A stretch of 64,000 bases of DNA, taken from Mayamaea pseudoterrestris (taxonomy: Eukaryota > Bacillariophyta > Bacillariophyceae > Sellaphorales > Sellaphoraceae). Shown piece after piece: positions 11,924 to 48,523 of this stretch. The DNA is taken from contig BROI01000007.1 of the NCBI GenBank assembly GCA_027923505.1, positions 558,001 through 622,000 of the forward strand, written 5' to 3'. Position numbers and translations under genes: made by a program. Positions within the stretch are counted from its first letter, which is position 1. Every line of letters begins with the position of its first letter. The notes beneath the pieces are model-generated. The model worked only from the letters and a program-made list of their open reading frames with translations. It did no database searches and was not told the DNA's origin.

Positions 11924-12219
11924 GACCCTAAGGATGGTGCAGTACTGTATTAATGTGAATGAAAAAAGCGAGATCACTTTTTATACCAGTTGTTCTTCCA
12001 TCGTCCGACAGCGCGCCATGGCAAAGCGAAACGCATTGGCTTTCCGTGTCGAAATGTCACACCACCACCAATTAAAATGTCGGACCGGTAACAAAACACG
12101 TATGCGCCGTGCTCGTATCCACAGAAAAAACTGACCGCCAAAGTCAGCCTACAGTAATGAATGGACAATCCTACGGTAGAGCTTGCTTTAGCTGTTCACA
12201 TGCTCCGAAGCAACTCATC

Positions 12220-12232
12220 AAAAGTAATAAAA
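12220..12232 (-). terminator. RNA polymerase III terminator, two T4 tracts
   Basis: On the minus strand TTTT occurs at 12232-12229 and again at 12223-12220, starting about 10 nt after the 5' half of the permuted tRNA. Such T runs terminate polymerase III. They support one transcript covering both halves. Confidence 0.6.
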
Positions 12233-12241
12233 GTATCGTTT

Positions 12242-12322
12242 CATAAGACCAACACTCTGACCACTGAGTTACACGAGCATCGGGTGTGCTCGAGGAGAGG
12301 GTCGAACTCTCGACCATTGGCT
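12242..12322 (-). tRNA. Circularly permuted tRNA gene, probable tRNA-Ile(UAU)
   Basis: On the minus strand the 3' half (12322-12287) lies upstream of the 5' half (12278-12242), separated by 8 nt. Rejoined, it gives 73 nt. Acceptor stem GCTCGTG/CTCGAGC pairs 6 of 7 (one T-T). D stem ACTC/GAGT, anticodon stem TTGGT/GCCAA (one G-T) and T stem GAGAG/CTCTC are complete. Invariant bases are all present: T8, A14, G15, G18G19, A21, T33, TTCGA in the T loop, C48, and A73 as discriminator. The anticodon loop reads CTTAT then G or A, giving anticodon UAU. If the junction lies one base earlier, the loop is the canonical CTTATAA. Two T4 tracts follow and a TATA-like box precedes. In conventional genes this isoacceptor usually carries an intron. 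In known permuted genes the precursor is circularised by splicing at the anticodon and then opened by RNase P and RNase Z. Confidence 0.8.
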
Positions 12323-12360
12323 TACTTGAACGTAGTGACGCAAAGACGGCCGTGTTTGGG

Positions 12361-12368
12361 TATATAAA
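12361..12368. promoter_or_regulatory. TATA-like box between the permuted tRNA and LSm2
   Basis: TATATAAA on the plus strand lies 93 bp before the LSm2 start codon. Read on the minus strand, TTTATATA lies about 40 nt upstream of the tRNA 3' half. It could serve either gene. In permuted tRNA genes the internal A and B boxes are in inverted order, so an upstream element may matter more. Confidence 0.4.
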
Positions 12369-23942: not shown

Positions 23943-26516
23943 TTACATATTCCGACTCGCCAAGGCTTCTGTAAGTTTTGGTAGCCAGTAATCCTCAATA
24001 CGTTGGTTGACAAAACAATTGTACGAGAGTCCGTCCTGGTCATATGCATCATCGCCTTTTTTCTTGGTACTGTTGGGCCAAGGCACTGCTACCAAGCACC
24101 CCAGCCACTTCTTGTCAAAGTCTTTGTGACAGTGCCCTCGCCATCGGTTGGTTTGGTCGGGTTTGATCGTTTTGGTATGAACCATGAGTGCTTCATGCAA
24201 TTCGTCAGTCACGCGTTCGCTGGGAGAGTGCTCCTCGTGTCGACGTATTCTCCACTCTGTCCCGTTTCGGCGCTTGCTCTCGGCGTAGGTTACGAGGATG
24301 GAATCGGGGACGGTACTATAATGCACAAAGTGATAATGGACGTATGATGGCCGGTAAATTTGTTTCCTGGCCCGCTCTGCCCAGTTTGGCTTGGGGAATT
24401 CTTCAGGATCACAGTTGTATGCTTGAAGAAATGTAACATCGTCGCGTTTCTTTAGCGACTTGCCGTGATCAGCTGGGTGACATGATTCCGGCCGCAACTT
24501 TCCTCTCGTACTGCGAAAAGTTAAGACATTTGTCCCGCCATTTGCGGCGTCGGAAAGAACATCTTTCAGGCTCGTGTAGTTCCCCATGGGAACAAGGTAT
24601 TCATCCGAGTCGAATGACGATATCCATTCAGTGAATGGTCCATACCGCGTTCGGCAGCTATTTTCCGCAGCATATTGACTTGATCGCTCGCCAGTGTTGT
24701 CGTGCGCCGGAACATTATTGTTGCAAATGATGGAAGGCCAGTCAATGTATGTCACTTTACCAGGAAACCGATCTGCTACCTCTCGCAGTGACGTTTCATT
24801 GGTTTGTGCTCCACTGTTATCGTACAGGTAAATTTGGTCAAAGCCCACTAGCAAATGAAACTCAATCCACTCATTCATTCGAGCAAACGTATCGGAAGTA
24901 ACGTCCGATGCGCGGGAGGCGCCGCGTGTTTTGAATTGTGCCGAAGCCCAGACGCAGGCAGACAAATAGTGTGGTTTCTTATGTTGCTTAAAGACGTCAG
25001 GAACAAGTTCAGTTTCACCTTTTCCATCGCTTAACTGTGGCGGTAAGCAAATGGGTATATTTTCCCACCGGCCACTAGCTTGGACGTGCGGAAGAACATT
25101 TCTGGGGCCCCATCGCTCAGTCGCGTTGAACCCTTTCACTCCCCATATGCGTCTTGGTCCGATCTGCTCCTCTGTGAGCCAGTGTTCGTCGTACCGGACG
25201 GAAGTTCGAATGGGCACTAGGTTAACATAAACTGTTGGCGTGCCATCACTTAAAATTAACTCTCCGCTGGCGACGCGTTCTCTTAATTTATGCTCATCGG
25301 GGACTGGACAATGAAATCGAATGTTGCTAGTCCAGAAGAAGATTGTATCCTTGCCCTTGGCGGTCAGCATGGCATCTACGTTCTTCCGGTAGGATACAAG
25401 CTCATAGTTGAAGGGATACTGACTCAAAGTCTCGCCGAGGTAGATTGTCTGTGGTTTGTTGTAGTCGTCAAAGGTCGTTGCATGAAATTGGCATACGAAA
25501 CGAGTGAACATGCCATCGCCAGAAGACTCATTATGGGATGCGAGTCGGTACCTTGATGCAGCCTGCGTTTCCTCATCCGACAATGACGGTTGCCACAAAT
25601 CCGGTGCCAGCGTCCTCGCCATCTTCTCCGTTATCCTTTCGACGCTGATTGGCTGCATCAAGGCAACTTGAGGCGTCAATCGATTCACATCCTTGGTGTA
25701 CTTGGTTCCAGTCCGACACCGTCGTTTGTTCTGTGCGACAAACTCAATGCGACTTCCATCCTGACTCGGAAAGACGTCATGTATCCATGATAGCCACGGA
25801 TCCGACTCGACGGGGCAGTGAGGCAGCTCCTGCTGCGCAAAGTTTTCGGGCGTGGCTTCATCGGCCACGTTCCAAACAACTGGATTGCCGTTTGGATCAA
25901 TCTCCAAACCTCGATCGACCGGAAACCTACCAGGCATGTCGTGGCAGCTTTGAACCTTTTTGTAAACCACTTTCTGTAGCTGGTGAGGCGTCTGTTTGCG
26001 GAGGGGTAGAGGCATTATAAAGTTCGGAGGAGTGCCCTTGTCTCGTTCATTCGCCAAATCTCCACGGCTTCCAGTTCCAGGAATTGTGTCGTTTAGTGGA
26101 GGCTCAATGAAAGCAGTGATTGGCTTGAAGATAGCTTTTGACCCATATTGTTTTAGAGCAGCTTCTGCCTTGGCTCTGTCAAACTGAAACGATGTGCTTG
26201 ATGATGACTGTCGACGTGTCGTGATTTCAGTCTTGGCGATGATCGTTTCTCCCCCCTCGTCTATCCCTCGATGTATCACGAGAAATGAGTACATGGAGAA
26301 GAAAAGGTACAGTACAACTATAAGCATTGTACTGCCGATAACTCGCTGTGTCAATGTAAACGTTGTGCCTTTGGTGTGATGCCTCCATCGAGTTGCGCCC
26401 TGTTTGCGTCGATCATGGCTGTTGCCAGCTGGCCTGGCTGGATCCACTGCAGCCTGCAGACGATATGCTGTCCCAGCTCCCGGCCTTCTTGAAGATACAG
26501 ATCGGCTCTGCAACAT
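23943..26516 (-). CDS. GT92-family (DUF23) type II membrane glycosyltransferase
   Basis: A single exon encodes 857 residues from the ATG at 26516. After a basic cytoplasmic tail a membrane anchor (about 60-83, MLIVVLYLFFSMYSFLVI) fits a type II Golgi protein. The catalytic region holds LSACVWASAQF, then MNEWIEFHLLVGFDQIYLYDN (about residues 555-575; only part given here as EWIEFHLLVGFDQIYLYDN), KVTYIDWPS, and SSFDSDEYLVP with the DxD metal-binding motif, followed by RPSYVHYHFVHYS. This set is characteristic of GT92 (DUF23), whose studied members transfer galactose onto beta-linked glycans. Donor and acceptor here are unknown. An N-terminal extension of about 450 residues is present. A copy of its 5' end recurs, degraded, at 38289. 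Confidence 0.8.
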   Translation of the reverse strand: MLQSRSVSSRRPGAGTAYRLQAAVDPARPAGNSHDRRKQGATRWRHHTKGTTFTLTQRVIGSTMLIVVLYLFFSMYSFLVIHRGIDEGGETIIAKTEITTRRQSSSSTSFQFDRAKAEAALKQYGSKAIFKPITAFIEPPLNDTIPGTGSRGDLANERDKGTPPNFIMPLPLRKQTPHQLQKVVYKKVQSCHDMPGRFPVDRGLEIDPNGNPVVWNVADEATPENFAQQELPHCPVESDPWLSWIHDVFPSQDGSRIEFVAQNKRRCRTGTKYTKDVNRLTPQVALMQPISVERITEKMARTLAPDLWQPSLSDEETQAASRYRLASHNESSGDGMFTRFVCQFHATTFDDYNKPQTIYLGETLSQYPFNYELVSYRKNVDAMLTAKGKDTIFFWTSNIRFHCPVPDEHKLRERVASGELILSDGTPTVYVNLVPIRTSVRYDEHWLTEEQIGPRRIWGVKGFNATERWGPRNVLPHVQASGRWENIPICLPPQLSDGKGETELVPDVFKQHKKPHYLSACVWASAQFKTRGASRASDVTSDTFARMNEWIEFHLLVGFDQIYLYDNSGAQTNETSLREVADRFPGKVTYIDWPSIICNNNVPAHDNTGERSSQYAAENSCRTRYGPFTEWISSFDSDEYLVPMGNYTSLKDVLSDAANGGTNVLTFRSTRGKLRPESCHPADHGKSLKKRDDVTFLQAYNCDPEEFPKPNWAERARKQIYRPSYVHYHFVHYSTVPDSILVTYAESKRRNGTEWRIRRHEEHSPSERVTDELHEALMVHTKTIKPDQTNRWRGHCHKDFDKKWLGCLVAVPWPNSTKKKGDDAYDQDGLSYNCFVNQRIEDYWLPKLTEALASRNM

Positions 26517-26780
26517 GAGGCTGATGTAATAATTAGTCTTTTGCGTCGAGGTTTGGTCACGGTTGATCGTTCCAAAAAATGAAGAGAATTTTAGTACCGC
26601 TACGATGTTTGTGTAACGCTACGACCTTTGCGACGGAAACGCACACCTTCCGTTTCACTCCGTGCTGATGACCATGGCACAACACGCGCGGCGCTGTTGC
26701 AGTGTTTTACTTACCAAGACTTGTGACCGCAAAAGTCGACTTTTTCATTGTAGCTTGATTAAGTCACAACTATCAGCATC
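26517..26780. promoter_or_regulatory. Divergent promoter region GT92/KIN17
   Basis: This 264-bp gap lies between divergent starts. It is present again, with many small deletions, at about 38764-39004. I recognise no specific motif. Confidence 0.3.
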
Positions 26781-27956
26781 ATGGGGAAGCACGAGAAAGG
26801 CTCCGTCAAGGACATTGCGAAACAAATTAAATCCAAAGGCTTGCAAAAACTCAAATTCTACTGCCAACTCTGCGAGAAGCAGTGTCGCGACGCCAATGGC
26901 TTCAAATGCCACTTGACAGGAGACTCTCACTTGCGCCAAGTCAAGCTGTTCAGCAGTAATGCGCAAGGAGTCATGGATCGCTACAGCAAGGAGTTTGAAA
27001 AAATGTTTCTCGACAATTTACGCATGCGACATCAAACCGTCAAGGTTTCGGCCAATAATGTTTACCAGCAAGTTATTCAAGACAAGCAACATATACATAT
27101 GAATGCGACTATTTGGGCGACGCTGACTGACTTTTGCAAGTACCTCGGGAAAACTGGCAAGTGTATTGTTGAGGAAACGGAGCGCGGCTGGATGATTCAG
27201 TACATTGATCGAGATCCAAGCAAGGCTGCCAAGGCGCTTGAACTGCAGAAACGCACAGAAGCGGAGCAAGCGGCGGAAATGGCACTGCAGGAAAAGTTTC
27301 AGCGGCAGCGAGAGGAAGCGGCAAAGCAGCTGGATGCGAGTGTTGTGGAGGCAGCAACACCGAGCGCACTCGACACTAACGCGAATATTAATGTCAATTT
27401 GGAGATTCGCAAACCTTTAAAAAAGGTTAAGACAGGGGCAAGTACGAATGTTGGAGCGGTGTTTGGAGAAGATGACGAGGGTTCCGAGAGCGACGACGGT
27501 CCTCCCTCGGGTCCACCGCTTCCACCAGCATTTTTGGAAAGTAAGAAGCGTTCACGTACAGAACCAGAATCTAGTCAATCAGCAGCTGTCGCTGCTGCAG
27601 CTTTACTAAAGGATAGCGATGATGGCTGGCTCTTGGACAATATTCTTGTCCGCATTATCAACAAAAAGTCGAAATACTTTAAACAAAAGGCAATCGTCAA
27701 GCGGGCTGGTCGATTGGCGCAGTTGACTCTGTTAGACGACTCTAACAAGAGTTTGGAAGTCAAACAAAAGCATTTGGAGACCGTCGTGCCAAAGCAAACG
27801 GGATCGCGTGTGCGGTTGCTGCAGGGAAGACATCGGGGTCAAGTGGCAACAGTTCAAGCGCTCGACAAGCATGAGTTTCGAGCAACGCTCCAGCTTGCGA
27901 ATGCTGTGGTTTTGCAAAATATTGATTACAATGACTTTTCGCAAGTAGCAGAATAG
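26781..27956 (+). CDS. KIN17: KIN17 DNA/RNA-binding protein
   Basis: A single exon encodes 391 residues. The N-terminus MGKHEKGSVKDIAKQIKSKG matches the family start. The C2H2 zinc finger follows at about 28-50 (FYCQLCEKQCRDANGFKCH, then H in SHLRQ). A winged-helix region (about 55-150) contains HIHMNATIWATLTDFCKYLG and the conserved IQYIDRDP. The middle is charged and low complexity. The C-terminus has a tandem SH3/KOW region (WLLDNILVRIINKK to HLETVVP, then GRHRGQVATVQALDK). KIN17 proteins act in replication, DNA damage response and pre-mRNA processing in the nucleus. The gene is intact here. A second copy at 39005 is broken. Confidence 0.93.
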   Translation: MGKHEKGSVKDIAKQIKSKGLQKLKFYCQLCEKQCRDANGFKCHLTGDSHLRQVKLFSSNAQGVMDRYSKEFEKMFLDNLRMRHQTVKVSANNVYQQVIQDKQHIHMNATIWATLTDFCKYLGKTGKCIVEETERGWMIQYIDRDPSKAAKALELQKRTEAEQAAEMALQEKFQRQREEAAKQLDASVVEAATPSALDTNANINVNLEIRKPLKKVKTGASTNVGAVFGEDDEGSESDDGPPSGPPLPPAFLESKKRSRTEPESSQSAAVAAAALLKDSDDGWLLDNILVRIINKKSKYFKQKAIVKRAGRLAQLTLLDDSNKSLEVKQKHLETVVPKQTGSRVRLLQGRHRGQVATVQALDKHEFRATLQLANAVVLQNIDYNDFSQVAE

Positions 27957-28341
27957 TAGATTGAACAAACTTTTCCGTTCGTCTCGCTAGGAGTGCTCGT
28001 TCGCAATGCAACGGCTCCTCGCACTGGGGCATTGTGGTCTTTTCTTCGAGTCATGTTATGAATTGCAGAACGGTTTATATATAAAACAGCGGCTTTACTG
28101 TATAGAGATGTTATGTGCACTAAAACAACTTCAAAGGCATACCGTATGCGACGCGACGTAGCTGCTTTCCAACTTCGGTAGCGGTGCGACACTCTTGAAA
28201 GAAACGCAGCCGCACAACACAAATCCACACGGCGACCAATAACGCAACAAATCCTTGCCTTCCCTCTTGCTAACACAGCTACTTTGATTCCGACTCTCTT
28301 ATCGGTGACCATATTAATTCTTTCTATATATCCTTAAAAGA
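27957..28341. other. Intergenic region KIN17-HIRA
   Basis: This 385-bp stretch lies between two plus-strand genes. It is repeated almost exactly at 40128-40511. I see no gene or structured element; small frames on the minus strand are shadows. Confidence 0.3.
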
Positions 28342-31300
28342 ATGGTGATCGTCGAATTTCCTCTTTGGGTCGCGCACTCGACGGAAGCTTCCTCCACAAC
28401 ATCTGCAACGCATGATTCTGCGCACAATGTCAAGGCTGCCCAAGCCTTGAACATGCTGCAGACGAAAAAGTCTGCCATGTACGGGGTCGACTGCCATCCG
28501 GACGGAACGCGATTTGCCACGGCAGGTGGAGACGGAACAGTGCGAATATGGAGTACGGCTCCACTCTTTTCCAACAAGCATCGAGGAAAAATTGCAAATG
28601 AACTCGCGCATCAAAGCAACAGCAACAGTCTCACCATGGGTGGAGGAGGTTTGGTGACTTCATTCGTGAGTAGCAGCAGTAGTAGCAGTGGAAGTGATCA
28701 TGATGATTTGACCTCGCCGATAAACGGAAGCGGCAATCTGCAGAATGCAAGTCGGGAGTCAACAGGCAGCAATAAACCAAGCAGCAGTGACGAGGAAGAA
28801 CAGATTCGCGACTTGAATAGCCTGGTACGACGCAAAAAGGATGGTCAATCACCCGCACGACCTTTGCGGCCACAAGCAAGTCCTCCTTTGAAGGCAGCGA
28901 CAAAGAGCCAATTTGCTCAAAAGCTCAACACTAAAAGCAATGAACCGCCACGCTTGCTTGCCACCCTGTCGGCGCATACGGGATCTTCCGTTTTGGCGGT
29001 GCGTTTCTCAACGACGGGCAAGTATTTGGCGTCGGCTGGCGATGACGCTGTCGTTTGCATCTACGAGCGATCCAATGTTGCGTCGGCAGCGTCGGGCAAT
29101 CTGACGGGGCATTACAATCATCATCACCATCATGCTCATGCGGAACATTGGATTCGAATACACTGCTGTCGGGGGCATGAACTGGATGTAGTTGATTTAG
29201 CTTGGGCTCCGGATGATTCCTATTTGGTGTCGTGCTCGCTTGACAGTCAAACGCCAATCATTGTTTGGAAGATTGCCGATGATTTTGACAGCCGAAATAG
29301 CAGCAAGGGCATTATCAAGAGCCCGTACAAGGTTCTTGGACGAGGAGTTCATACAAGTACCGTCAAGGGTGTATGTTTTGATCCAGCTGGTTCGTACATT
29401 GCGAGTTCGGGGGACGATCCTGCGGTTTGCATTTGGCGCGCACACGACGATTGGGGGCTGGAGCAGCGGATCGACGCTTCCTCCGGCATTTTTCGGCAGT
29501 GGCATGCCAATGATGACTCTGTCAGCTTGTCGAGTCAGTCCTTGTTTCGTCGCATTAGTTGGGCAACGGATGGCGCTTTCTTATGTTCGACGAACTCTGT
29601 CGTGAAGAATAAGCATGTTGCGTCAACAATAAGTCGTCAAAGTTGGAACGTGAGCTCTGGCTCGCATGTTTCGACAGGTGCTGCGAACCTTGTTGGTCAC
29701 AAGCAGCCGGTCGTTGTGAGTCGGCACGCGCCTCAAATGCTCAGCGCCAAGAAGCGGCGCGAAAGAGCTCTTCAGAATGACGAAATTGAACATGAAGCTG
29801 ACGATGAAGCGGAAGACGATGAAGACGAAGAGCCACAACATGCAATGCTATTGGCACTAGGTGACAAGCGCGGGTTCGTGACAGTATGGAGCACTAAGAA
29901 GTCGCGTCCAATTTTCAAGTTGCAATGCAGCGAAAGTCGATGTACAGTGACGGATTTGTCTTGGCTAAAGTTACCCACGAGTGACAATCTTGTTCTTCTA
30001 ATATCCTTATTGGATGGCCAGTTAGTTGCTGTCAATTTTGCAGTGCCGTCAGAGCTTGGCGCGTTGTTGAGTAAAAAAGATCAGGCTAGAGTGTTTCAAT
30101 TGAGATATGGAATTGATGCAGACGATAACCGACTGTTCGTTGGCCGGAGCACAGGCATTAAAATAGTGGAGAACCCACTGCAGATGACACTAGAAGATCA
30201 GGATATGAATGACGCTGATGGAGGCGATAATCCTTTTCCAGATGACGTCGATAATGATAAGGAAGAGCTGAGTGCGCCCCAGCAGGAAACGCAAGCGAAA
30301 CAGAAGGAGAGTCGGATAGGTGGCAAGAAACGAGTGCAGCCAATGCTTGTCAGTTTGACTACAGCGCCAGAGAAGCGAGCTCGAGTCGATAATTCAAGGG
30401 ATAAAGAGCTGCAGGAGAGACGGAAATCGCTTGATCCAGTGCAAAATGCACTTGACGCCGCAGAAAAAGCTAATGCAGCCATTCAGGCTGCTCATGCGCA
30501 AAAGGAAAGGACAAGTCATAACGACGCTACAATTGCCCAGACAAATGCTCCATCAAATATCACTTTGACAGCACCTGCTCGCCCAGCGCAGCTACCTGCT
30601 ACCAATTCGTTCGCGTTGCCTTTTAGCACCGAGACATCTCATTCCGCCGAGCTTCCTCTCAGGAATGACTTCATTGCCTCCCACTCGGACCCTCCAGCAT
30701 CGTTTATGGTTGAGTGCAAGAACTCCAACAAAACTCCTTCAGGTTCGATAGGGTCGTCAATGCCATGCATTGACATTGCAATTAGCTCTGTAGGGAAGGT
30801 GTCATGGAAAGAGCAGATCGCCGGCACATCATGTTGTGCCATTGCTGCGTCGCTTGATTTTCTTGCAGTCGGGACTAGTGACGGTACAATCCAGCTCTAC
30901 AGCACCTCACCCAGTATGGGCTGGGCGTGTGGTGTTGCATTCAGGTCGCATCCTACGATTGTGATCGGTCAAGCGCCAGTTAACCTTAGGTTAAACGATC
31001 AGACAGCGGCAACTGGCGAGAAGACTGTGTCAATGATGATTGTGAGCGCTGACGGGGGCTTTGCAGTTTACACGCTACTACCACAGCTCAAGCTGCAATA
31101 CAAGGGCACTATTGTTCCTGCTATGACGCACATGACACATAGTGCCTGTGTCAGACAAGGCTTGGCAGTTCCAAACCTTTCAAGAATTCAAGTAACTGAG
31201 TCAGGCCATTTACTGATGTTACTATCTTTGGAACCCGCCACGCCTCGTACAGACGCCAACGGGAATTATGCCTCACGTTCAATGGCAAGTGCACTGGAAA

Positions 31301-31896
31301 GTATTGGTGGTTCTGTCCAAGCATTTGTGTATAATGTTGACGCTGAACTCTGGATGCGGGTTTCGGATAGTCGCTTCCTACTGTCAGACTTTTACAGTGT
31401 GAACCCCTCTCGAAATAACGAAAGAGGACGACTTATACAATGGGACGACCTTGTTCGAATCGGAAGTGCGCAGTCACAGCTCAAGGCAAATCGTCGATTG
31501 AACGCTGACAGCGGCGAGGTCCGCACAATATACAATAGCGACGAAGAAAGTATCTTTGAAGCAACCAGAGTACATTGTGAGGATCGCATGGCTTGCGCCA
31601 TGGCTTTTGGAGAAGCAAATGAATTCGAGCATTGGCTTCGATTGTACATCCGCACGTTGACGCGCTCGGGAAATGTTGATGTGGTGCGCATTGTCGTTGA
31701 CATGCTCAAAACTGACGAAGACCGACCCTTGCTTGGCTCCGACAGGATGGGTTGCTGGTGGATGTCACAGGCATCGTCCATTCTGGGACTTGGACGAACA
31801 ACTCTTCTCAAGTCGATTGTAATTCCAGAGCTCAGCAAGAATCGATCGTTGCAACGACTCACGAACGAAATCAACCTGGAAGTTTCCAATTTGTGA
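28342..31896 (+). CDS. HIRA: HIRA histone chaperone subunit
   Basis: A single exon encodes 1184 residues. The N-terminal WD40 propeller is clear, with VDCHPDGTRFATAGGDGTVRIWS (about 49-71, split), HTGSSVLAVRFSTTGKYLASAGDD, HELDVVDLAWAPDDSYLVSCSLD and HTSTVKGVCFDPAGSYIASSGDD. The first two blades are separated by a Ser-rich, acidic insertion of about 110 residues. A B-domain-like stretch GGKKRVQPMLVSLT (about 654-667) binds Asf1 in relatives. The C-terminal HIRA domain (about 790-1184) ends in helical repeats. HIRA, with UBN1 and CABIN1, deposits histone H3.3-H4 independently of replication. It is of normal size with long acidic linkers. The second copy (40512-44069) is interrupted by frameshifts. 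Confidence 0.92.
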   Translation: MVIVEFPLWVAHSTEASSTTSATHDSAHNVKAAQALNMLQTKKSAMYGVDCHPDGTRFATAGGDGTVRIWSTAPLFSNKHRGKIANELAHQSNSNSLTMGGGGLVTSFVSSSSSSSGSDHDDLTSPINGSGNLQNASRESTGSNKPSSSDEEEQIRDLNSLVRRKKDGQSPARPLRPQASPPLKAATKSQFAQKLNTKSNEPPRLLATLSAHTGSSVLAVRFSTTGKYLASAGDDAVVCIYERSNVASAASGNLTGHYNHHHHHAHAEHWIRIHCCRGHELDVVDLAWAPDDSYLVSCSLDSQTPIIVWKIADDFDSRNSSKGIIKSPYKVLGRGVHTSTVKGVCFDPAGSYIASSGDDPAVCIWRAHDDWGLEQRIDASSGIFRQWHANDDSVSLSSQSLFRRISWATDGAFLCSTNSVVKNKHVASTISRQSWNVSSGSHVSTGAANLVGHKQPVVVSRHAPQMLSAKKRRERALQNDEIEHEADDEAEDDEDEEPQHAMLLALGDKRGFVTVWSTKKSRPIFKLQCSESRCTVTDLSWLKLPTSDNLVLLISLLDGQLVAVNFAVPSELGALLSKKDQARVFQLRYGIDADDNRLFVGRSTGIKIVENPLQMTLEDQDMNDADGGDNPFPDDVDNDKEELSAPQQETQAKQKESRIGGKKRVQPMLVSLTTAPEKRARVDNSRDKELQERRKSLDPVQNALDAAEKANAAIQAAHAQKERTSHNDATIAQTNAPSNITLTAPARPAQLPATNSFALPFSTETSHSAELPLRNDFIASHSDPPASFMVECKNSNKTPSGSIGSSMPCIDIAISSVGKVSWKEQIAGTSCCAIAASLDFLAVGTSDGTIQLYSTSPSMGWACGVAFRSHPTIVIGQAPVNLRLNDQTAATGEKTVSMMIVSADGGFAVYTLLPQLKLQYKGTIVPAMTHMTHSACVRQGLAVPNLSRIQVTESGHLLMLLSLEPATPRTDANGNYASRSMASALESIGGSVQAFVYNVDAELWMRVSDSRFLLSDFYSVNPSRNNERGRLIQWDDLVRIGSAQSQLKANRRLNADSGEVRTIYNSDEESIFEATRVHCEDRMACAMAFGEANEFEHWLRLYIRTLTRSGNVDVVRIVVDMLKTDEDRPLLGSDRMGCWWMSQASSILGLGRTTLLKSIVIPELSKNRSLQRLTNEINLEVSNL

Positions 31897-32413
31897 TGCT
31901 ATAATAAATGATGATGATAGCTTTGTTTGTTTATCTAGATTGTAGGCGATACGAGATACACATACCCAGCCAATAAGGGCGACTAGCAACATAAGAAGAG
32001 TACGACATAGATGGGACGTGATCGCTCCACAGTTGAGATTTGGGGACCAGTTGCGACTTTAAAGTGCAAAAATTAGCTAAACTCGTTTTGATGAAAAGAA
32101 TGATGATGATTCGATTACCTCTCCCATCGCTGTACCGAAACTAAAAATTTGCTTGCACCTCCGATATTGCTGGCCCAAATGACCAGGAGGCATGTGCAAA
32201 AGTATAGCATCAAGTGCAGGATCAAGTACGGCAAGGGCGATAATCTATTTTGCACACGAGTCTGATCCGTACAGGGATGTGCTCAAGTAAAATATTTATG
32301 AGCAAGTATATAAAAGGCCAGCACCAACTTTTTCAGTAAATCGGACAATTTGCTTCAAGAATACTATGTAAAAATGTACAAAACATATCACTAGCTTAAC
32401 GGTTGTCGATAAA
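31897..32413. other. Convergent intergenic region HIRA / hydroxylase
   Basis: This 517-bp, AT-rich stretch is repeated near-identically at 44070-44586. No gene is supported. It contains an ATGATGATGA microrepeat near 32100. Confidence 0.3.
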
Positions 32414-33410
32414 TTATTCAACGCCGCCTCCCGTCAGTGACTTCCACAAGCCAGCGAGTCCACCAACTTGCTCCTGCAGTGAACGAGGTTTACGAATCGG
32501 CACCTGTCCATTTTCAAACTTGTTTCTTAAATCGTAAACAAACTCCAGAGCCGACCGCTCCGCTTCCGTCAACTCTGGATGCCAAAAGTCAATGATCAAT
32601 ACATGCCGATCTTGCTCGGTGGGATTGCCGGTGGAATGAACAAAGGATGTATCAATCGTGGTCAGCTTGCCTTGCGCCCAGCCCCTGCGCACACCTCCCA
32701 CTTCCATCCAGACCAAGATGCGAGGTCAAAATAAAGTTGCGTCCATCGCTATGTGGTTGCACGCCGGTTCCTGGTGTTTGCTTCGCAAAGCAAACGCCTC
32801 GCACCGCCAGCGGAATTTTCAGCGACTTTAACAAGCGAAAGGTTTCCGGAAATTGGAGGCACGTTTCCGTGTTCCATACGCCAAGTCGCTGCAGTCGCAC
32901 GGCGCTCCAACCTTGGCCCATGACTTGGTTCTGCCAAATGGAGTCTGTGGCAAAGACCATGGAAGTGTTGAGTTTCGTTTCGTATTCGGCTTGGATAATG
33001 TGAGCGCTTGCTTCCAAGTCTTGCGCCCATGGGAACAGCTGCAAGTCTTCTGCTGCGTTCCAAAACGGTTTCGTTGTTAATCCATCGACATGTTCCTCCG
33101 ATGGCTCGTGGCCTGCAGCGCTTGGTGTTGGTAGGGAAAGTTTCCCCTGGGCTCTTGCCGCAAAGGTTCGAATGCGATCAATGTCTTGGTTTTGCTTGCG
33201 CCAAAAGTTCTCAATGTCATCAAGGCCATCGTCTACATCCTCCCAAAATTGCATCTGCCGTTCCGTCAAGACATTGCATGACAAATGGCAGTGCCTTGTT
33301 GATGCGTGACGATTGTTCGTTACAAGAGTTGTGAACCCTGCCGATTTGCTGATGTGGAAAAGCAGCATGCATGCGGCAGAGCGCGACAATCTCATCGTCC
33401 ATCTTCTCAT
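32414..33410 (-). pseudogene. Aspartyl/asparaginyl beta-hydroxylase-like gene with an internal frameshift
   Basis: Two overlapping frames make up one protein. The first (33410 to about 32705) has a probable N-terminal signal or anchor (ACMLLFHISKSAG). It continues to VQPHSDGRNFILTSHLGL, which carries the HxD iron ligands and the 2-oxoglutarate fold typical of the aspartyl beta-hydroxylase family. The second (about 32716 to 32414) continues EVGGVRRGWAQGKL, FVHSTGN with the distal iron His, and RHVLIIDFWHPEL with the 2-oxoglutarate Arg. The spacing between HLGL and the RGW motif is several residues shorter than in relatives and the frame changes there, so a small deletion that is not a multiple of three is likely. 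The identical break occurs in copy B, so it predates the duplication or is systematic. The family oxidises Asp/Asn in target proteins using Fe(II) and 2-oxoglutarate. An unusual splice cannot be fully excluded. Confidence 0.65.
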
Positions 33411-33603
33411 ATTTGTAGTGGTTGATGCTGGTCAATGCGCTGTACTTGCGCAGTAAGGCTGTAACGGTTGCTTCTCGCCGCAAAATCGGATGCAAAACAA
33501 ACAACAAAACTGTGAAGTCGACGGCCGAAAAGAAGAACCGGTGAGACACGGGCCTCATCGTGATCACCGCGCGCGTTCATCGCGTCCTTGGTGTTGAGCA
33601 TGG

Positions 33604-36600
33604 ATGAGAACCCAAACCGAAGCGACAGCGGTGACGTCACGAAGACGGTCACGTTTAAGTAAGCGCGGTAAGCGGCAACCGAAGGAGTGGATCGAGGACG
33701 ATCACTTCTTGGAGAAAATAAGTAAAGTGGTTTTATTGACTCTGTTCTGCTTACATAGTGTCGCGGGCGGATTCATCCCTTTCCGCGCGCGAGCGGTGGA
33801 GAGTGCGACCTCCGCTCCGCCAGCAAGCGAAGGAAACCGACGCAACCGTCATTATCGTCGTGGGAATCGTGCTGGGAATCGTTCCGGGAATCAAGGCAAT
33901 GGTAGCAGACTCAACGGACCGAGTCGTGCGCCGAGTGGAAATTTCCAAGGAAGCGAGCCGACGCTCGCTGGATTCATCTACGACTACAACGGTTCGCGCG
34001 ATCCCGATGGATTCATCCGTACGACGAACGAGATCATCACTTTCGTCGGGCGCTCCTACAAGAAATATACCAAGGAGCTGCTCAAGGGCATGCGCAACGT
34101 GGAACTGGAGATTCCTGACGAGCCTGCGCGTCCAACGAAGGATGCCGACACGACGGACTCGGACTGGTCCATAATGCTCGAGGAATACAAGGCCGACAAG
34201 AAAGAGCATGTCGAGCGCGTGCGTGTGTACTCCGACTTCCTTGCTGGTCTCTACGCCGTGTTGTATGGACAATGCACGGAGCGTATGAAGGATCGTGTCA
34301 AGTCGCACGCCAAGTTCCGAGACGCCGAGGAGGACACGGACGGAATTAAGTTGCTGGCGATTATCAAGGAGATCTCGCATACGTACGAAGGGCGCTGCAA
34401 ACTTGTGGATCAAGTCGTGGACATTCAAGCTGAGTTGTTCGGACGTACTCAAGGAGCGCGCGAAAGCCTGCAGAAATATTACGAAAGCATGGTCACGCTG
34501 GCAGACGTGGCGAAGGCGGTTGGCGTCACGATGCACAACGAGATCGTGGCATTGAACATTGCCAAGGATGACAATCGTAACAAGGCGACCAAGGAGGATA
34601 TCAAGGCCGCCGAAGAGCTCGAGCTTGCGATGCTTTTCGTGCGTGGCGCAACGGGCGAATACGCTGGGTATTGCAAGCACTTGCGCAACTGCTACCTCGA
34701 CGGGCACGACAATTTCCCGTTGACGATCCACGATGCATACAACATCATGCAGCGTCGTGAGCATGCGGATGGAGAAGCCACGTTGCCAACGAACGAGGGC
34801 GTGGCGTTTCACACGACTGGTACAGCGCGTGACCCTCCTAGATGCTGGACCTGCCAACAGGTTGGTCATGTGCAGCGAGACTGTCCTACGAGAACGGAGT
34901 CTACGGAGAGTGCGCCGGCTGCAGAGGCTAGCGGGGCGCAGCACTTCACGCTGGGTAGCGAGGAAGATAGCGATGACGACGACGAGGTCGGATACATGTT
35001 CGCGCAGCCGCCGAAGGTGAACATCTCGAAGAAGGCTGTGCTCTTGGACAATCAGTCGACAGTGGATCTGTTCTGCAACGCCAAGATGCTGACGAACATT
35101 CGCCCGGTGCCAACGTGGATGGTGATCAAGTGCAACGCCGGTACAGTAAGGACGAACATGATGGGCGACCTGGAGGGCTATGGTCCGGTGTGGTGGTATC
35201 CGCAGGGACTGGCGAACATTTTGAGTTTGGCGCAAGTCCGCAAGAAGTTTACCGTGGAGTATCTCATGCACGGCGTGGAGCGTCCAATGTTTGTCGTGGA
35301 GAAGCCGGACGGTAAGCAGCGCGAGTTTGTCGAGACTGACTCTGGGCTGTATGTTTGCGAGAGCTTTTCGAAGGGCAAGCGCGGTGATGTCAAGGATGGA
35401 GTGGCGATGTTGACTACGGTAGACGATAACCGTACTAACTACACCAATGATGACTATTTACGCGCTGTTAGAGCTAGGGAACTGCAAATCAAAATTGGAC
35501 GGCCAAGCCTCAAGGATTACCTGCGCATCGTTACTAGCAATCAGTTGCCGAACTGTCCTGTGACGAAAGCCGACATCCTGGCTGCTGAGCACATCTTTGG
35601 ACCAGATGTTGGCTCGTTAAAAGGAAAGACGACGCGTCGCGCGTCGCATCTGGTGAAGCCAGCAATTGTTGAGCAGCTTCCACCGGCTATCATGAGTCGC
35701 TATCGAGACGTTACTCTTTGTGCTGACATCATGTATATCAACAAGGTCCCTATGTTGGTGACGTTCTCCCGCAGCATTCGTTTTGCTACGGTCGAGGTGA
35801 TTCAAAACCGTACGCTTCCGGTTATGTTGAAGGCAATCGAGTCTGTGTTGAAGATTTACGCACGCGGTGGGTTCCGTGTCGTCGCGGCTCTGATGGATGG
35901 GGAGTTTGCTCCAATGCTGGGCGCGTTGGCTGATCTCGGAGTGGCGCTCAATGCGACGTCTGAGGATGAGCACGTTGGCGAAATCGAACGGTTTATCCGT
36001 GTCGTGAAGGAACGGGTGCGCGCGACATACAACACATTGCCGTTTAAGCACGTGCCAGCACGCTTGGTTATCGAAATGACGAAGTCTGCCGTGTTTTGGT
36101 TGAATGCGTTTCCGCACGAGCGTGGCATTTCCAAGGATCTCAGTCCACGCACCATTGTGACTGGTCAGACAGTTGACTTTAATCGACATTGCAAGTATGA
36201 ATTCGGTCAGTATGTGCAAACGCATGAGTCGCACAGCAATGACATGCAGGCGCGCACGATTGGTGCGCTGGCTCTGCGCCCGACTGGTAATGTGCAGGGT
36301 GGGTTTTATTTCCTCAGTTTGTCTTCGGGCAAAATTCTGAATCGTGGCCACGCTACGCCTTTGCCCATGCCTGATGATGTCATTGAGCGCGTGCATCGTC
36401 TCGCTCGTCAACAGAAGGCCAATCCGGGCATCGTGTTCATGGACCGCCACCGTGTTGCGGAGGCTGCTGAGCCCGTCATGTGGCACGATGATGACGACGA
36501 GGATGATGATGACTCTGATTACGATGACGACGCTTCTCGCGGCGACGACGACTCTGCCGGCGGAAGCGAAGGAGTGAATGCGACCGATGACGATGACGAT

Positions 36601-38214
36601 GACAGCGACGACGACGATGGTGCTGACGGGGCAATCGAAGGAGTGCCGGGCGATGAGGCTGGTGATGGTGAGGCCATTGACGGCGAACTTGACGACGCGC
36701 CGGCCGTGGATGATGGCGAAATTGAAGGAGTGCCCGATGAAGGCGACATTGAAGGAGTGCCAGCTGCTGCAGACGAAGAGGATTTCGATGCGCGCTATGG
36801 CCCACGCACTGGTCGGTATGGCCTGCGTGCGCGCAAACCTCGATCGTTCGCTCATTTGTTCACGCTCGACGCTGCAGAGGAAGTGTCGGAGCCACTCGTC
36901 ACGGCACAGATGAACATGCGACAAGGTTTAAAGGCTTTCGGCGATGCTGGAGTGGAGGCAGTGCGCAAGGAAATGCAGCAGCTACACGACAGGCACGTCA
37001 TGAAGGCAGTCCCCCAGTGCACTCTGACTCCGCAGCAGCGCAAGGACGCGCTGGCGTATTTGATGTTTCTCAAGCGCAAGCGATGCGGGACAGTGAAGGG
37101 ACGCGGTTGCGCGGATGGACGCAAGCAACGAGCATACACTGCAAAGGAAGACGCAGCATCTCCAACGATAGCGACAGAGGCCATATTTCTGACGGCTATC
37201 ATTGACGCTATGGAAGGGCGCGAGGTTGCTGTAGTTGATGTACCAGGTGCTTTCATGCAAGCGGAAATGGATGAGTTGGTGCACGTACGTTTCACTGGGA
37301 AGATGGTGGAGCTACTGTTGGAAATTGATCGCGAGATGTACGAGCCTTGCGTCACAATGGAGAATGGCGAGAAAGTCATGTACGTCGAATTACTCATGGC
37401 GCTTTATGGTACGCTTCGAGCAGCACGACTATTCTGGGAGAAGCTGTCTGCAAAATTGCTTGAGTGGGGCTTCGAGAAGAACCCGTACGATCCGTGTGTG
37501 TGTAACAAGATTGTCAATGGAAAGCAAATCACCGTGGGATGGCACGTGGACGATTTGAAGATTTCACACGTCGACGTGAGCGTAGTGGATGAGTTCATCG
37601 CACAGATGGATGAGGAGTTCGGCAAGGAGACTCCAATGAATAAGTCACGCGGAAAAGTGCACGACTACCTCGGCATGGTATTGGACTATACTAAGCCTGG
37701 AGAAGTAGCAATCAACATGGTTGACTATGTGAAGAACATCCTTCATCATGCGCCGGACGACATGGATGGAACGGCAGCTACTCCGGCCGCCAGTCACTTG
37801 TTTCAGATCTCGGAAAATCCAGTCATGTTGAGCGAAGCAAAGAAGCAGATTTTTGTGACGATTGTGATGCAATGTCTGTATCTGAGTCAGCGAGCGCGAC
37901 CGGATATTCGCACAGCGATTTCTTTCTTGAGCACGAGGCTGCAGCAGCCTGACGAAGACGACTATAAGAAGGCTGCAAGAGTGATTAAATATTTACGCGG
38001 AAGCGTGGACATGGTGTTGACGCTGAAGGCGGACCAGTCCGGGATAGTCCAGTGGTGGGTGGATGCGTCGTACGCGGTACACCCAGACATGAAGGGTCAC
38101 ACTGGTGGAACAATGACACTTGGTCAAGGATCAGTGTACAGTACGTCGGCTAAACAGAAGTTGGTAACAAGAAGAGAGAGCTACCGCAGTTGCTGTGGAC
38201 AGGATATTTTCTGA
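33604..38214 (+). CDS. Copia gag-pol polyprotein (copy 1)
   Basis: The frame is open for 1536 codons. Visible domains in order: gag helical region (about 90-400), CCHC zinc knuckle CWTCQQVGHVQRDC (about 413), an aspartic protease segment reading LLDNQSTVD (about 480) where the usual motif is DSGA/T, integrase catalytic core (CADIMYI about 707, LMDGEF about 764, GEIERF about 793), an acidic linker with four IEGVP repeats (about 960-1060), reverse transcriptase (VVDVPGAFMQAEMDE about 1210, GWHVDDLKI about 1311) and RNase H (WWVDASYA about 1484). The start is doubtful. Copy 2 begins MSSTSNTP, but that stretch is lost here in a 79-bp net deletion around 33750-33830, so the frame opens at an upstream ATG. 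Near 38165 a deletion shifts the frame, and RNase H continues in another frame to the junction. Confidence 0.75.
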   Translation: MRTQTEATAVTSRRRSRLSKRGKRQPKEWIEDDHFLEKISKVVLLTLFCLHSVAGGFIPFRARAVESATSAPPASEGNRRNRHYRRGNRAGNRSGNQGNGSRLNGPSRAPSGNFQGSEPTLAGFIYDYNGSRDPDGFIRTTNEIITFVGRSYKKYTKELLKGMRNVELEIPDEPARPTKDADTTDSDWSIMLEEYKADKKEHVERVRVYSDFLAGLYAVLYGQCTERMKDRVKSHAKFRDAEEDTDGIKLLAIIKEISHTYEGRCKLVDQVVDIQAELFGRTQGARESLQKYYESMVTLADVAKAVGVTMHNEIVALNIAKDDNRNKATKEDIKAAEELELAMLFVRGATGEYAGYCKHLRNCYLDGHDNFPLTIHDAYNIMQRREHADGEATLPTNEGVAFHTTGTARDPPRCWTCQQVGHVQRDCPTRTESTESAPAAEASGAQHFTLGSEEDSDDDDEVGYMFAQPPKVNISKKAVLLDNQSTVDLFCNAKMLTNIRPVPTWMVIKCNAGTVRTNMMGDLEGYGPVWWYPQGLANILSLAQVRKKFTVEYLMHGVERPMFVVEKPDGKQREFVETDSGLYVCESFSKGKRGDVKDGVAMLTTVDDNRTNYTNDDYLRAVRARELQIKIGRPSLKDYLRIVTSNQLPNCPVTKADILAAEHIFGPDVGSLKGKTTRRASHLVKPAIVEQLPPAIMSRYRDVTLCADIMYINKVPMLVTFSRSIRFATVEVIQNRTLPVMLKAIESVLKIYARGGFRVVAALMDGEFAPMLGALADLGVALNATSEDEHVGEIERFIRVVKERVRATYNTLPFKHVPARLVIEMTKSAVFWLNAFPHERGISKDLSPRTIVTGQTVDFNRHCKYEFGQYVQTHESHSNDMQARTIGALALRPTGNVQGGFYFLSLSSGKILNRGHATPLPMPDDVIERVHRLARQQKANPGIVFMDRHRVAEAAEPVMWHDDDDEDDDDSDYDDDASRGDDDSAGGSEGVNATDDDDDDSDDDDGADGAIEGVPGDEAGDGEAIDGELDDAPAVDDGEIEGVPDEGDIEGVPAAADEEDFDARYGPRTGRYGLRARKPRSFAHLFTLDAAEEVSEPLVTAQMNMRQGLKAFGDAGVEAVRKEMQQLHDRHVMKAVPQCTLTPQQRKDALAYLMFLKRKRCGTVKGRGCADGRKQRAYTAKEDAASPTIATEAIFLTAIIDAMEGREVAVVDVPGAFMQAEMDELVHVRFTGKMVELLLEIDREMYEPCVTMENGEKVMYVELLMALYGTLRAARLFWEKLSAKLLEWGFEKNPYDPCVCNKIVNGKQITVGWHVDDLKISHVDVSVVDEFIAQMDEEFGKETPMNKSRGKVHDYLGMVLDYTKPGEVAINMVDYVKNILHHAPDDMDGTAATPAASHLFQISENPVMLSEAKKQIFVTIVMQCLYLSQRARPDIRTAISFLSTRLQQPDEDDYKKAARVIKYLRGSVDMVLTLKADQSGIVQWWVDASYAVHPDMKGHTGGTMTLGQGSVYSTSAKQKLVTRRESYRSCCGQDIF

Positions 38215-38288: not shown

Positions 38289-38763
38289 GTAGAGGCATTA
38301 TAAAGTTCGGAGGGGTGCCCTTGTCTCGTTCATTCGCCAAATCTCCACGGCTCCAGTTCAGGAATTGTGTCGTTTGTGGAGGCTCAATGAAACATTGGGT
38401 TTCGCTTTTGACCATATTGTTTTAGAGCACTTCTGCCTTGGCTCTGTCAAACTGAAACGTTGACTTGATGATGACTGTCGACGTGTCGTGATTTCAGTCT
38501 TGGCGATGATCGTTTCTCCCCCTCGTCTTCCCTCGATGTATCACGAGAAATGAGTACATGGAGAAGAAAAGGTACAGTACAACTATAAGCATTTACTGCC
38601 GATAACTCCTTTGTGTCAATGTAAACGTTGTGCCTTTGGTGTGATGCCTCCATCGAGTTGCCCCTGTTTCGTCGATCATGCTGTTGCCACTGCCTTGGAT
38701 CCATACACCTGCAAGATATACTGTCCCAACTCCCGCCTTCTGAAGAACAGATCGTTGCAACAT
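38289..38763 (-). pseudogene. GT92 glycosyltransferase remnant (5' end only)
   Basis: This corresponds to 26006-26516 of the intact gene, the cytoplasmic tail, membrane anchor and start of the stem. Numerous 1-10 bp deletions destroy the frame, and the catalytic part is absent because the copy is cut at the junction with copia sequence. The ATG equivalent is at 38763. It cannot encode a functional enzyme. Confidence 0.85.
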
Positions 38764-39004
38764 GAGTGATGTAATAATTGTCTTTTGCGTCGATTTGTCA
38801 GTTGATCGTTCAAAAAATGAAAAATTTTTAGTCCTTCTTTTGTCGCTACGACCTTTGCGGGAAACGCACACCTTCCGTTTCACTCCCGTGCCTTTGATGA
38901 CCATGGCACAACACGCGCGACGCTGTTGCAGTGTTTTCTGACCAAGACTTGTGACCGCAAATCGACTTTTTCATTGTAACGATTAAGTCACAACTATCAG
39001 CATC

Positions 39005-40127
39005 ATGGGGAAGCACGAAGGCTCCGTCAAGGACATTGCGAAACAAATTAAATCAAAGACTTGCAAAAACTCAAATTCTACTGCCAACTCTGCGAGAAAC
39101 GGTGTCGCGACATAATGGCACAAATCCATGACAGGAGACTCTCGCGCGCCAATCAACTGTTCACAATGTCGCAGAGTCATGGATCGCTTACAACAGGTTT
39201 GAAATATGTTTCTCGACAATTTACGCATGCGACATCAAACCGTCATTTCGGCCAATAATGTTTACCAGCAAGTTATTCAAGACAAACAACATCTCCATAT
39301 GAATGCGACTATTTGGGCGACATGACTGACTTTGCAAATTCCTCAGGAAAACTGGCAAGTGTATTGTTGAGGAAACGGGCGCGGCTGGAGATCATTGATC
39401 AGAGATCAAACAAGCTCCGCTTGAACCGCGCAAAACGCACAGAGGAACAAGCGGCGGCGAAATGGCACTGCAGGAAAAGTTTCAGCGGCACGAGAGGGAC
39501 AGCAACGCCTGGATGCGAGTGTTGTGGAGGCAGCAACACCGAGCGCACTCGACACTAACGCGAATATTAATGTCAATTTGGAGATTCGTAAACCTATAAA
39601 AAAAGGTAAAGACAGGGTACGAATGTTGGAGCGTGTTTGAGGAGATGACGAGGGTTTCGAGAAGCGACGACGGTCCTCCTCGGGTCACCGCTTCCACCAG
39701 CATTTTGGAAAGTAAGAAGCGTTCACGTACAGAACCAGAATCTAGTCAATCAGCAGCTGTCGCTGCTGCAGCTACTAAAGGATAGCGATGATGGCTGGCT
39801 CTTGGACAATGTTCTTGTCCGCATTATCAACAAAAAAGTCGAAATACTTTAAACAAAGGCAATCGTCAAGCCGGGCTGGTCGATTGGCGCAGTTGACTCT
39901 GTTAGACGACTCTAACAAGAGTTTTGGAAGTCAAACAAAAGCATTTGGAGACCGTCGTGCCAAAGCAAACGGGATCGCGTGTGCGGTTGCTGCCGGGAAG
40001 ACATCGGGGTCAAGTGGCAACAGTTCAAGCGCTCGACAAGCATGAGTTTCGAGCAACGCTCCAGCTTGCGAATGCTGTGGTTTTGCAAAATATTGATTAC
40101 AATGACTTTTCGCAAGTAGCAGAATAG
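39005..40127 (+). pseudogene. KIN17 pseudogene copy
   Basis: This is colinear with 26781-27956. The start MGKHE is kept, but many small deletions break the frame through the zinc finger, winged helix and linker. Only the last 67 codons (39924-40127, from EVKQKHLETVVP) match the intact gene in frame, with a Q to P change in GRHRG's preceding residue. The damage is concentrated before about 39790. Confidence 0.88.
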
Positions 40128-40511
40128 TAGATTGAACAAACTTTTCCGTTCGTCTCGCTAGGGTGCTCGTTCGCAATGCAACGGCTCCTCGCACTGGGGC
40201 ATTGTGGTCTTTTCTTCGAGTCATGTTATGAATTGCAGAACGGTTTATATATAAAACAGCGGCTTTACTGTATAGAGATGTTATGTGCACTAAAACAACT
40301 TCAAAGGCATACCGTATGCGACGCGACGTAGCTGCTTTCCAACTTCGGTAGCGGTGCGACACTCTTGAAAGAAACGCAGCCGCACAACACAAATCCACAC
40401 GGCGACCAATAACGCAACAAATCCTTGCCTTCCCTCTTGCTAACACAGCTACTTTGATTCCGACTCTCTTATCGGTGACCATATTAATTCTTTCTATATA
40501 TCCTTAAAAGA

Positions 40512-43500: not shown

Positions 43501-44069
43501 GTATAATGTTGACGCTGAACTCTGGATGCGGGTTTCGGATAGTCGCTTCCTACTGTCAGACTTTTTACAGTGTGAACCCCTCTCGAAATAACGAAAGAGG
43601 ACGACTTATACAATGGGACGACCTTGTTCGAATCGGAAGTGCGCAGTCACAGCTCAAGGCAAATCGTCGATTGAACGCTGACAGCGGCGAGGTCCGCACA
43701 ATATACAATAGCGACGAAGAAAGTATCTTTGAAGCAACCAGAGTACATTGTGAGGATCGCATGGCTTGCGCCATGGCTTTTGGAGAAGCAAATGAATTCG
43801 AGCATTGGCTTCGATTGTACATCCGCACGTTGACGCGCTCGGGAAATGTTGATGTGGTGCGCATTGTCGTTGACATGCTCAAAACTGACGAAGACCGACC
43901 CTTGCTTGGCTCCGACAGGATGGGTTGCTGGTGGATGTCACAGGCATCGTCCATTCTGGGACTTGGACGAACAACTCTTCTCAAGTCGATTGTAATTCCA
44001 GAGCTCAGCAAGAATCGATCGTTGCAACGACTCACGAACGAAATCAACCTGGAAGTTTCCAATTTGTGA
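40512..44069 (+). pseudogene. HIRA copy with multiple frameshifts
   Basis: This is near-identical to 28342-31896 but interrupted. Breaks are a small indel cluster at about 40552-40566, a G insertion near 40925, a deletion near 41044, an A insertion in an A run at 42241-42248, a T deletion near 42407, an A insertion near 42633, a G insertion near 43160, a T insertion near 43398 and a T insertion near 43564. Most fall in homopolymers. The WD40 part 41057-42259 and C-terminal part 43440-44069 remain open. Taken as true sequence, the copy is non-coding. Homopolymer indels are also the usual long-read consensus error. Confidence 0.85.
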
Positions 44070-44586
44070 TGCTATAATAAATGATGATGATAGCTTTGTT
44101 TGTTTATCTAGATTGTAGGCGATACGAGATACACATACCCAGCCAATAAGGGCGACTAGCAACATAAGAAGAGTACGACATAGATGGGACGTGATCGCTC
44201 CACAGTTGAGATTTGGGGACCAGTTGCGACTTTAAAGTGCAAAAATTAGCTAAACTCGTTTTGATGAAAAGAATGATGATGATTCGATTACCTCTCCCAT
44301 CGCTGTACCGAAACTAAAAATTTGCTTGCACCTCCGATATTGCTGGCCCAAATGACCAGGAGGCATGTGCAAAAGTATAGCATCAAGTGCAGGATCAAGT
44401 ACGGCAAGGGCGATAATCTATTTTGCACACGAGTCTGATCCGTACAGGGATGTGCTCAAGTAAAATATTTATGAGCAAGTATATAAAAGGCCAGCACCAA
44501 CTTTTTCAGTAAATCGGACAATTTGCTTCAAGAATACTATGTAAAAATGTACAAAACATATCACTAGCTTAACGGTTGTCGATAAA

Positions 44587-45582: not shown

Positions 45583-46001
45583 ATTTGTAGTGGTTGATGC
45601 TGGTCAATGCGCTGTACTTGCGCAGTAAGGCTGTAACGGTTGCTTCTCGCCGCAAAATCGGATGCAAAACAAACAACAAAACTGTGAAGTCGACGGCCGA
45701 AAAGAAGAACCGGTGAGACACGGGCCTCATCGTGATCACCGCGCGCGTTCATCGCGTCCTTGGTGTTGAGCATGGATGAGAACCCAAACCGAAGCGACAG
45801 CGGTGACGTCACGAAGACGGTCACGTTTAAGTAAGCGCGGTAAGCGGCAACCGAAGGAGTGGATCGAGGACGATCACTTCTTGGAGAAAATAAGTAAAGT
45901 GGTTTTATTGACTCTGTTCTGCTTAATCATTAGTGTCGCTTCAAGGGCGCGCAAGATATATTCTAGATCCAACATTTTCTCCAAGAAGGGAGTGAAAAGA
46001 C

Positions 46002-48212: not shown

Positions 48213-48523
48213 TGCAGGATGCGAACGAAAACAGCGAAAATCGGGCAAGTCACACCGAATGTCCGATAGGGTGACACAGCGGCACTCGCGGCTCACCACA
48301 GCCTCACGATCGCGTGATGCGTGGCAGCGACGGCTTCGAAGCGATTCAACGAGTATATTGCTGAAACTAGTGCGATATAGAGTAGAAACAAGCAGACTTA
48401 CTAAGCTTGAAGAGTTAAGAAAGCGATTTATTCGTCTCTCGTATTGTAGCAACTGCAAGCTTGGATTGGCCATCCAAGGACAGCTACAAGCGAAAGGTGC
48501 AACGATTTGATTTACAAGTTACA
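48213..48523 (+). repeat. 5' LTR of element 3
   Basis: 311 bp, TG...CA ends, matching 54485-54795 base for base as far as I can see. Immediately downstream comes AGATTAACAC, with no clear match to a tRNA 3' end, so the primer site is unresolved. Confidence 0.9.

Follow-up and report, generated by a model that had tools for sequence, protein, structure and literature searches.

A probable circularly permuted tRNA-Ile(UAU) gene in the nuclear genome of a fucoxanthin alga

The minus strand of the 64-kb stretch of DNA analysed here (the window), which lies on contig C7 of an assembly of 30.63 Mb in 41 contigs, carries a tRNA gene whose 3′ half precedes its 5′ half. We regard it as very probably a type II (37/38) circularly permuted nuclear tRNA-Ile(UAU) gene of a fucoxanthin alga, most likely a diatom. 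An initial annotation of this DNA had already put forward a permuted tRNA-Ile(UAU), and this interpretation is supported by a rotated tRNA model, by ARAGORN run on circularised sequence and by another permuted gene elsewhere in the genome. The gene is of a known kind and its isoacceptor is new; as to its lineage, among the open-licence papers searched we met with no description of a permuted tRNA gene in the nucleus of a diatom or another stramenopile. Judging from the sequence, the cell probably has to circularise the RNA and then re-cut it.

Architecture of the locus and recognition of the tRNA

On the minus strand the order of elements is TATA box, leader, 3′ half, spacer, 5′ half and T runs, with the following features (basis in brackets).

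12366-12361, minus: TATATA box, beginning 44 nt upstream of the 3′ half (sequence)
12332-12325, minus: leader side of the splice motif, CGTT (12332-12329) and CAAG (12328-12325) (pairing)
12324-12322, minus: leader-side 3-nt bulge TAA, with the predicted cut between 12323 and 12322 (pairs; 37/38 rule)
12322-12287, minus: 3′ half of tRNA-Ile(UAU), 36 nt, with A38, anticodon 3′ strand, variable loop, T-arm, acceptor 3′ strand and A73 (sequence, rotated model, circular ARAGORN)
12286-12279, minus: spacer, 8 nt, CACCCGAT, linking both acceptor ends (sequence)
12278-12242, minus: 5′ half of tRNA-Ile(UAU), 37 nt, with acceptor 5′ strand, D-arm, anticodon 5′ strand and anticodon TAT (12245-12243) (sequence, rotated model, circular ARAGORN)
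12247-12237, minus: trailer side of the splice motif, CTTA (12247-12244, positions 32-35), bulge TGA (12243-12241) and AACG (12240-12237)
between 12242 and 12241, minus: predicted trailer-side cut (37/38 rule)
12232-12229 and 12223-12220, minus: two TTTT runs, likely RNA polymerase III terminators (sequence)

The sequence and circular ARAGORN confirm the position of the two halves and of the 8-nt spacer as first annotated, and the TTTT tracts and TATA-like box claimed at the same time are present. The spacer follows A73 directly, so that CCA is not encoded, and contains no T run; its length falls within the range of 1-74 nt published for permuted tRNA genes (PMC3978253). A TATA box and T runs flank both permuted genes of this genome. 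The weight of the TATA box is uncertain, as among the 10 conventional genes with long flanking sequence just 2 have one ≤70 nt upstream. Divergent from the tRNA gene, a gene that reads as LSm2-like (named by eye) starts at ~12450 on the plus strand, ~130 nt from the tRNA 3′ half.

When joined, the halves give a complete cloverleaf of 73 nt with eukaryotic consensus bases. The ARAGORN drawing reproduces the pairing originally claimed, namely acceptor 6/7, D 4/4, anticodon 5/5 (including one T.G) and T 5/5, with A73, and in the circular ARAGORN call the anticodon UAU is preceded by U33. The acceptor mismatch is T6.T67. As we read it, tRNA-Ile(AAT), a conventional gene of the same genome (L013), has this mismatch too, and T6.T67 therefore looks native to the Ile tRNAs and not a sign of decay. 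Plain folding of the joined 73-mer gives a lowest-energy structure in which the T-arm is swapped for another hairpin.

Linear ARAGORN finds no tRNA within the window, and Rfam at gathering scores has no match there. In the surrounding 2.5 kb, the sole Rfam family with E up to 5 is YrlA (E 0.048), whose tRNA-like arms stand in similar order. That the locus encodes a Y-RNA-like non-coding RNA of this type is nevertheless scarcely credible, since the match scores 23.7 bits where the gathering score is 69, and the anticodon stem and loop close into a full tRNA. YrlA is a bacterial family.

Treated as a circle, the 81-nt unit is called tRNA-Ile(tat) by ARAGORN. Across 1,022,585 window segments of 76-104 nt, circular ARAGORN made 393 calls. 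Of these, 392 come from segments that begin at 12150-12330, a part of them with a partial or different anticodon. In ten dinucleotide shuffles of the window the counts were 1, 1, 2, 2, 6, 7, 7, 8, 10 and 24. The method alone is unspecific, with 1-7 calls in each of the loci L049, L051, L065 and L069, and with 459 calls, many of different anticodons, at the second permuted locus described below. We also built a model from conventional tRNAs of the same genome rotated in silico: 31 sequences were first aligned, ten were left out (nine for misalignment in their first column, one as a near duplicate), and the 21 kept were given a hand-written structure. The model contained neither permuted candidate, but did contain the related Ile(AAT). 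Over 67,047 bases (the window plus the second locus), it scored the Ile locus at 63.1 bits (E 4e-18) and the second locus at 66.8 bits (E 2.6e-19), E-values being rough; the next-best match within the window reached 12.7 bits.

A second permuted gene and the tRNA gene set

The second permuted gene encodes tRNA-Cys(GCA) and lies on another contig (L050; C2:1490015-1490096, plus strand). Its 3′ half is followed by a 9-nt spacer, TCTTCCGAT, and the 5′ half; the acceptor pairs at 7/7 with U73, TATATA stands upstream and T runs downstream. Both spacers end in CCGAT. At neither the Ile nor the Cys locus is a tRNA called in linear mode, and Rfam gives no match there at its gathering scores. Further permuted genes were sought with three pattern screens that combined a TTCGA T-loop, one of three D-loop forms and a spacer below ~30 nt. 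These returned 26, 38 (repeated sequences among them) and 7 rows, against 24, 13 and 11 for a control pattern. Acceptor pairing was scored on 26/26, 33/38 and 6/7 of these rows, four exact and two near repeats being left out; only tRNA-Cys(GCA) reached 7/7, the next best being 5/7. The window gene itself, with A10, fails the screen patterns, and other permuted genes may therefore remain.

Among conventional genes, Rfam gave 48 matches in the 63 of 802 candidates that were scored, and of the 48 loci 47 also receive an ARAGORN gene call; neither Ile(UAU) nor Cys(GCA) is among them. Used as a DNA query of the assembly, the joined Ile sequence has two matches, both halves at the window locus in swapped order, and the joined Cys sequence likewise matches only its own two halves at C2:1490015-1490096. 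The joined Ile query did not report Ile(AAT), and diverged copies could escape it in the same way. Absence of a conventional Ile(UAU) gene is thus unproven, since 63 of 802 candidates were scored and the DNA query misses diverged copies; within the reach of these searches, which is that of close copies, neither of the findings named in advance as refuting the permuted reading, an intact gene of conventional layout or a pair of separate, degraded copies, was encountered. AUA codons are in use, making up 38 of the 245 Ile codons in nine window ORFs.

The same searches (Rfam subset, ARAGORN, pattern screens and DNA query) did not locate Trp, Gly-GCC, Arg-ACG or Leu-CAA, nor Gly-CCC and Arg-CCG, the codons of the last two being readable by other tRNAs. 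A DNA query with plant sequences for five tRNAs (Trp, Gly-GCC, Arg-ACG, Leu-CAA and Gly-CCC) hit four places, all known Gly or Asp genes; as it reached genes at 79-89% identity, close copies should be detectable. Some conventional genes appear to hold introns: we interpret L039, a Phe gene according to ARAGORN, as a Tyr(GTA) gene interrupted by an intron at 37/38, and L045 and L047 as intron-bearing Met genes. In addition, tRNA-Lys(CTT) and tRNA-Asp(GTC) each occur as a tandem pair with copies ~160 nt apart (L009/L010, C11:280506 and 280663; L018/L019, C33:121530 and 121697). A second tRNA-Val(TAC) (L048, C22:145217-145288), which looks decayed, has an altered 3′ acceptor strand and receives no ARAGORN call, stands ~3 kb from an intact tRNA-Val(TAC) (L014, C22:148154).

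Over 75 sources, the only other high score of the rotated model, 70.9 bits, fell on the tandem Lys pair, in which the 3′ half of the first copy lies ahead of the second copy's 5′ half, an arrangement that has been proposed as an intermediate; the remaining matches were all ≤32.7 bits. As the Lys pair scores so high, the model alone cannot separate a permuted gene from a tandem pair. The Ile locus might be a dead relic of tandem tRNA genes instead of a working permuted gene, a reading to which the existence of tandem identical genes in this genome lends some colour, as does the proposal that tandem duplication is the route to permuted genes (PMC3978253). We nonetheless consider it very unlikely: the halves pair across each other with no visible decay, a splice motif is present, and the window holds no outer halves, each half matching itself, plus one 22/36 match for the 3′ half. 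A dead relic might, moreover, leave the genome without Ile(UAU) and Cys, because no other close gene was found for either.

The splice junction, position 37 and proposed maturation

Under the 37/38 rule, a 4-bp helix (positions 32-35 with leader positions -3 to -6) is bounded by 3-nt bulges on both sides and continued by an outer helix. At the Ile junction the bulge-helix-bulge (BHB) in this 3-4-3 register forms 7 of 8 pairs (~0.005 in random flanks), with 3/4 in the central helix (an A.C mismatch) and 4/4 in the outer helix. This register pairs CGTT with AACG and CAAG with CTTA; the TTCA/TGAA pairing initially offered as part of the splicing helix is not in the canonical register. The Cys junction has 4 + 1 pairs (5/8, P 0.18), the Tyr intron junction 5/8 (0.18) and the Met intron 4/8 (0.28), each alone not above chance, which leaves Ile with the best motif among the four junctions scored. 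The 32:-3 pair is present in all four, that is, in both permuted genes and in the Tyr and Met introns, with exon ends that we set ourselves. In energy terms the motif contributes just 0.5 kcal/mol: the precursor with cloverleaf and splice motif is at -18.8 kcal/mol and with the cloverleaf alone at -18.3, while its free fold adopts another pairing at -30.8 kcal/mol; against shuffles, the folding energy has z -1.2.

The junctions also bear on the notion that an error of assembly or sequencing swapped the halves, which we hold to be extremely improbable. Two different tRNAs on two contigs have the same architecture, with 8- and 9-nt spacers, a TATA box and the 32:-3 pair, and a splice motif is not expected from a mis-join.

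If cut canonically at 37/38, the 5′ half carries G at position 37, which is odd for an Ile(UAU) isoacceptor; the conventional Ile(AAT) of the same genome has A37. The modification t6A37 has been described for Ile(UAU) (PMC9602550). A variant of the permuted reading, rather than an alternative to it, is that the gene is permuted and expressed, but joined at 36/37, which would yield the A37 needed for t6A. The bases permit this joining, with the same 73-nt length and the loop CUUAUAA. We think it rather unlikely, since by our own reading of the sequence Ile would then lose the 32:-3 pair and the 3-4-3 spacing, and the other three junctions of this genome are readable at 37/38.

For the permuted gene joined at 37/38, maturation may be pictured as follows. 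RNA polymerase III would produce a single transcript of leader, 3′ half, spacer, 5′ half and trailer; the tRNA-splicing endonuclease would remove leader and trailer at the bulge-helix-bulge, and a ligase would connect position 37 to position 38, closing a circular pre-tRNA. The 8-nt spacer would then be excised by RNase P and tRNase Z, CCA would be added, and the finished tRNA would decode AUA codons. In the algal pathway as reviewed, one RNA is transcribed, the endonuclease cuts it at the BHB, ligation yields a circle, RNase P and tRNase Z take out the spacer, and CCA is added (PMC3978253). The genome encodes a tRNA-splicing endonuclease domain (one match, 52.8 bits), which is exon-sized and has an internal stop if read without introns. 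The permuted gene may have arisen from an intron-bearing ancestor, as the initial annotation proposed.

The host genome, known permuted genes and implications

The assembly contains 53 matches to the light-harvesting family PF00504, some on C7 and C2, the contigs of the permuted genes. For one light-harvesting locus (L087), the best solved matches are FCPI-3, Lhcf6 and Pt17531-like proteins, and another (L082) matches fucoxanthin proteins; we take these entries to be diatom proteins and the leader of L087 to be an ASAFAP-type motif. When 32 light-harvesting loci were compared with two reference fragments, the best identities were 79 and 83%, so that among these loci nothing points to either of the two species from which the fragments come. 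A search for 5.8S rRNA gave no match in the assembly (39 of 1292 candidates scored), and rDNA may be missing from it.

The window itself has further features of interest. It holds a ~10-kb direct duplication (26006-35968 and 38289-48221, spacing ~12.25 kb; 97.3% identity over 7787 bases and 99.6% over 2186), with a HIRA-like WD40 gene; the first copy has this gene as a single open frame, the second as several shorter ones. Behind the first copy stands a Copia-type element (reverse transcriptase in 33604-38214), whose first part also stands behind the second. At 54796-63526 lies a satellite array of ~169-bp units interleaved with ~180-bp units as a higher-order repeat, possibly centromeric or subtelomeric.

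Outside this genome, nothing matching the Ile order was found in the bacterial and archaeal genomes searched. One viral-contig match to this order (L094) proved to be phage-like coding DNA that contains no tRNA and is not matched by the model, and was put down to chance; a second viral scan gave at least 120 stretches, which may be tandem tRNA arrays.

Permuted tRNA genes have been reported from the red alga Cyanidioschyzon merolae, green algae, green-derived nucleomorphs and one archaeon (PMC3978253, PMC4494063, PMC12633428). Among the 34 permuted genes in the table of the review, none is Ile(UAU) and none is from stramenopiles (PMC3978253); later additions are another chlorarachniophyte nucleomorph (PMC4494063) and Auxenochlorella (PMC12633428). 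The genes of C. merolae are like the one described here in having the 3′ half first, a short spacer, a junction BHB, an upstream TATA-like box and a downstream T run, and six of the 11 have a type II junction, as here (PMC3978253); its Ile(UAU), in contrast, carries three introns (PMC9602550). In prasinophyte green algae, the junction is mostly type II 37/38 and Cys(GCA) is permuted in O. lucimarinus, O. tauri and M. pusilla, although these belong to the green lineage, have no permuted Ile, and have three Cys spacers of 12-38 nt versus 9 here (PMC3978253). Chlorarachniophyte nucleomorphs likewise have type II junctions in permuted tRNA-Ser genes (PMC4494063) and very short spacers, 5 nt in B. 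natans (PMC3978253), but are relict green-algal nuclei with Ser only (PMC4494063). In Auxenochlorella, a green alga by contrast, permuted genes were detected through an incomplete tRNAscan-SE set (PMC12633428). Thermofilum pendens also has swapped halves, in a gene that is single-copy for its anticodon, as the Ile gene may be, and differs in being an archaeon, with a junction at 59/60 and CCA encoded (PMC3978253).

Beyond this one genome, it is quite conceivable, if somewhat short of probable, that in diatoms, or in one of their branches, permuted or otherwise disrupted genes are the only source of some essential tRNAs: Ile for AUA, Cys and perhaps also some of Trp, Gly-GCC, Arg-ACG and Leu-CAA. 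If true, a major phytoplankton group would rely on circular pre-tRNAs, overlooked since linear tRNA finders miss them. The present finding also means that tRNA sets from such finders may be incomplete in related algae. A diatom nucleus is a separate place on the tree for permuted genes, with Cys common to it and the prasinophytes, and the genes described here bear on whether such genes had many origins or travelled with an algal endosymbiont. Furthermore, the co-occurrence of tandem pairs and permuted genes in one genome makes the tandem-duplication model testable.
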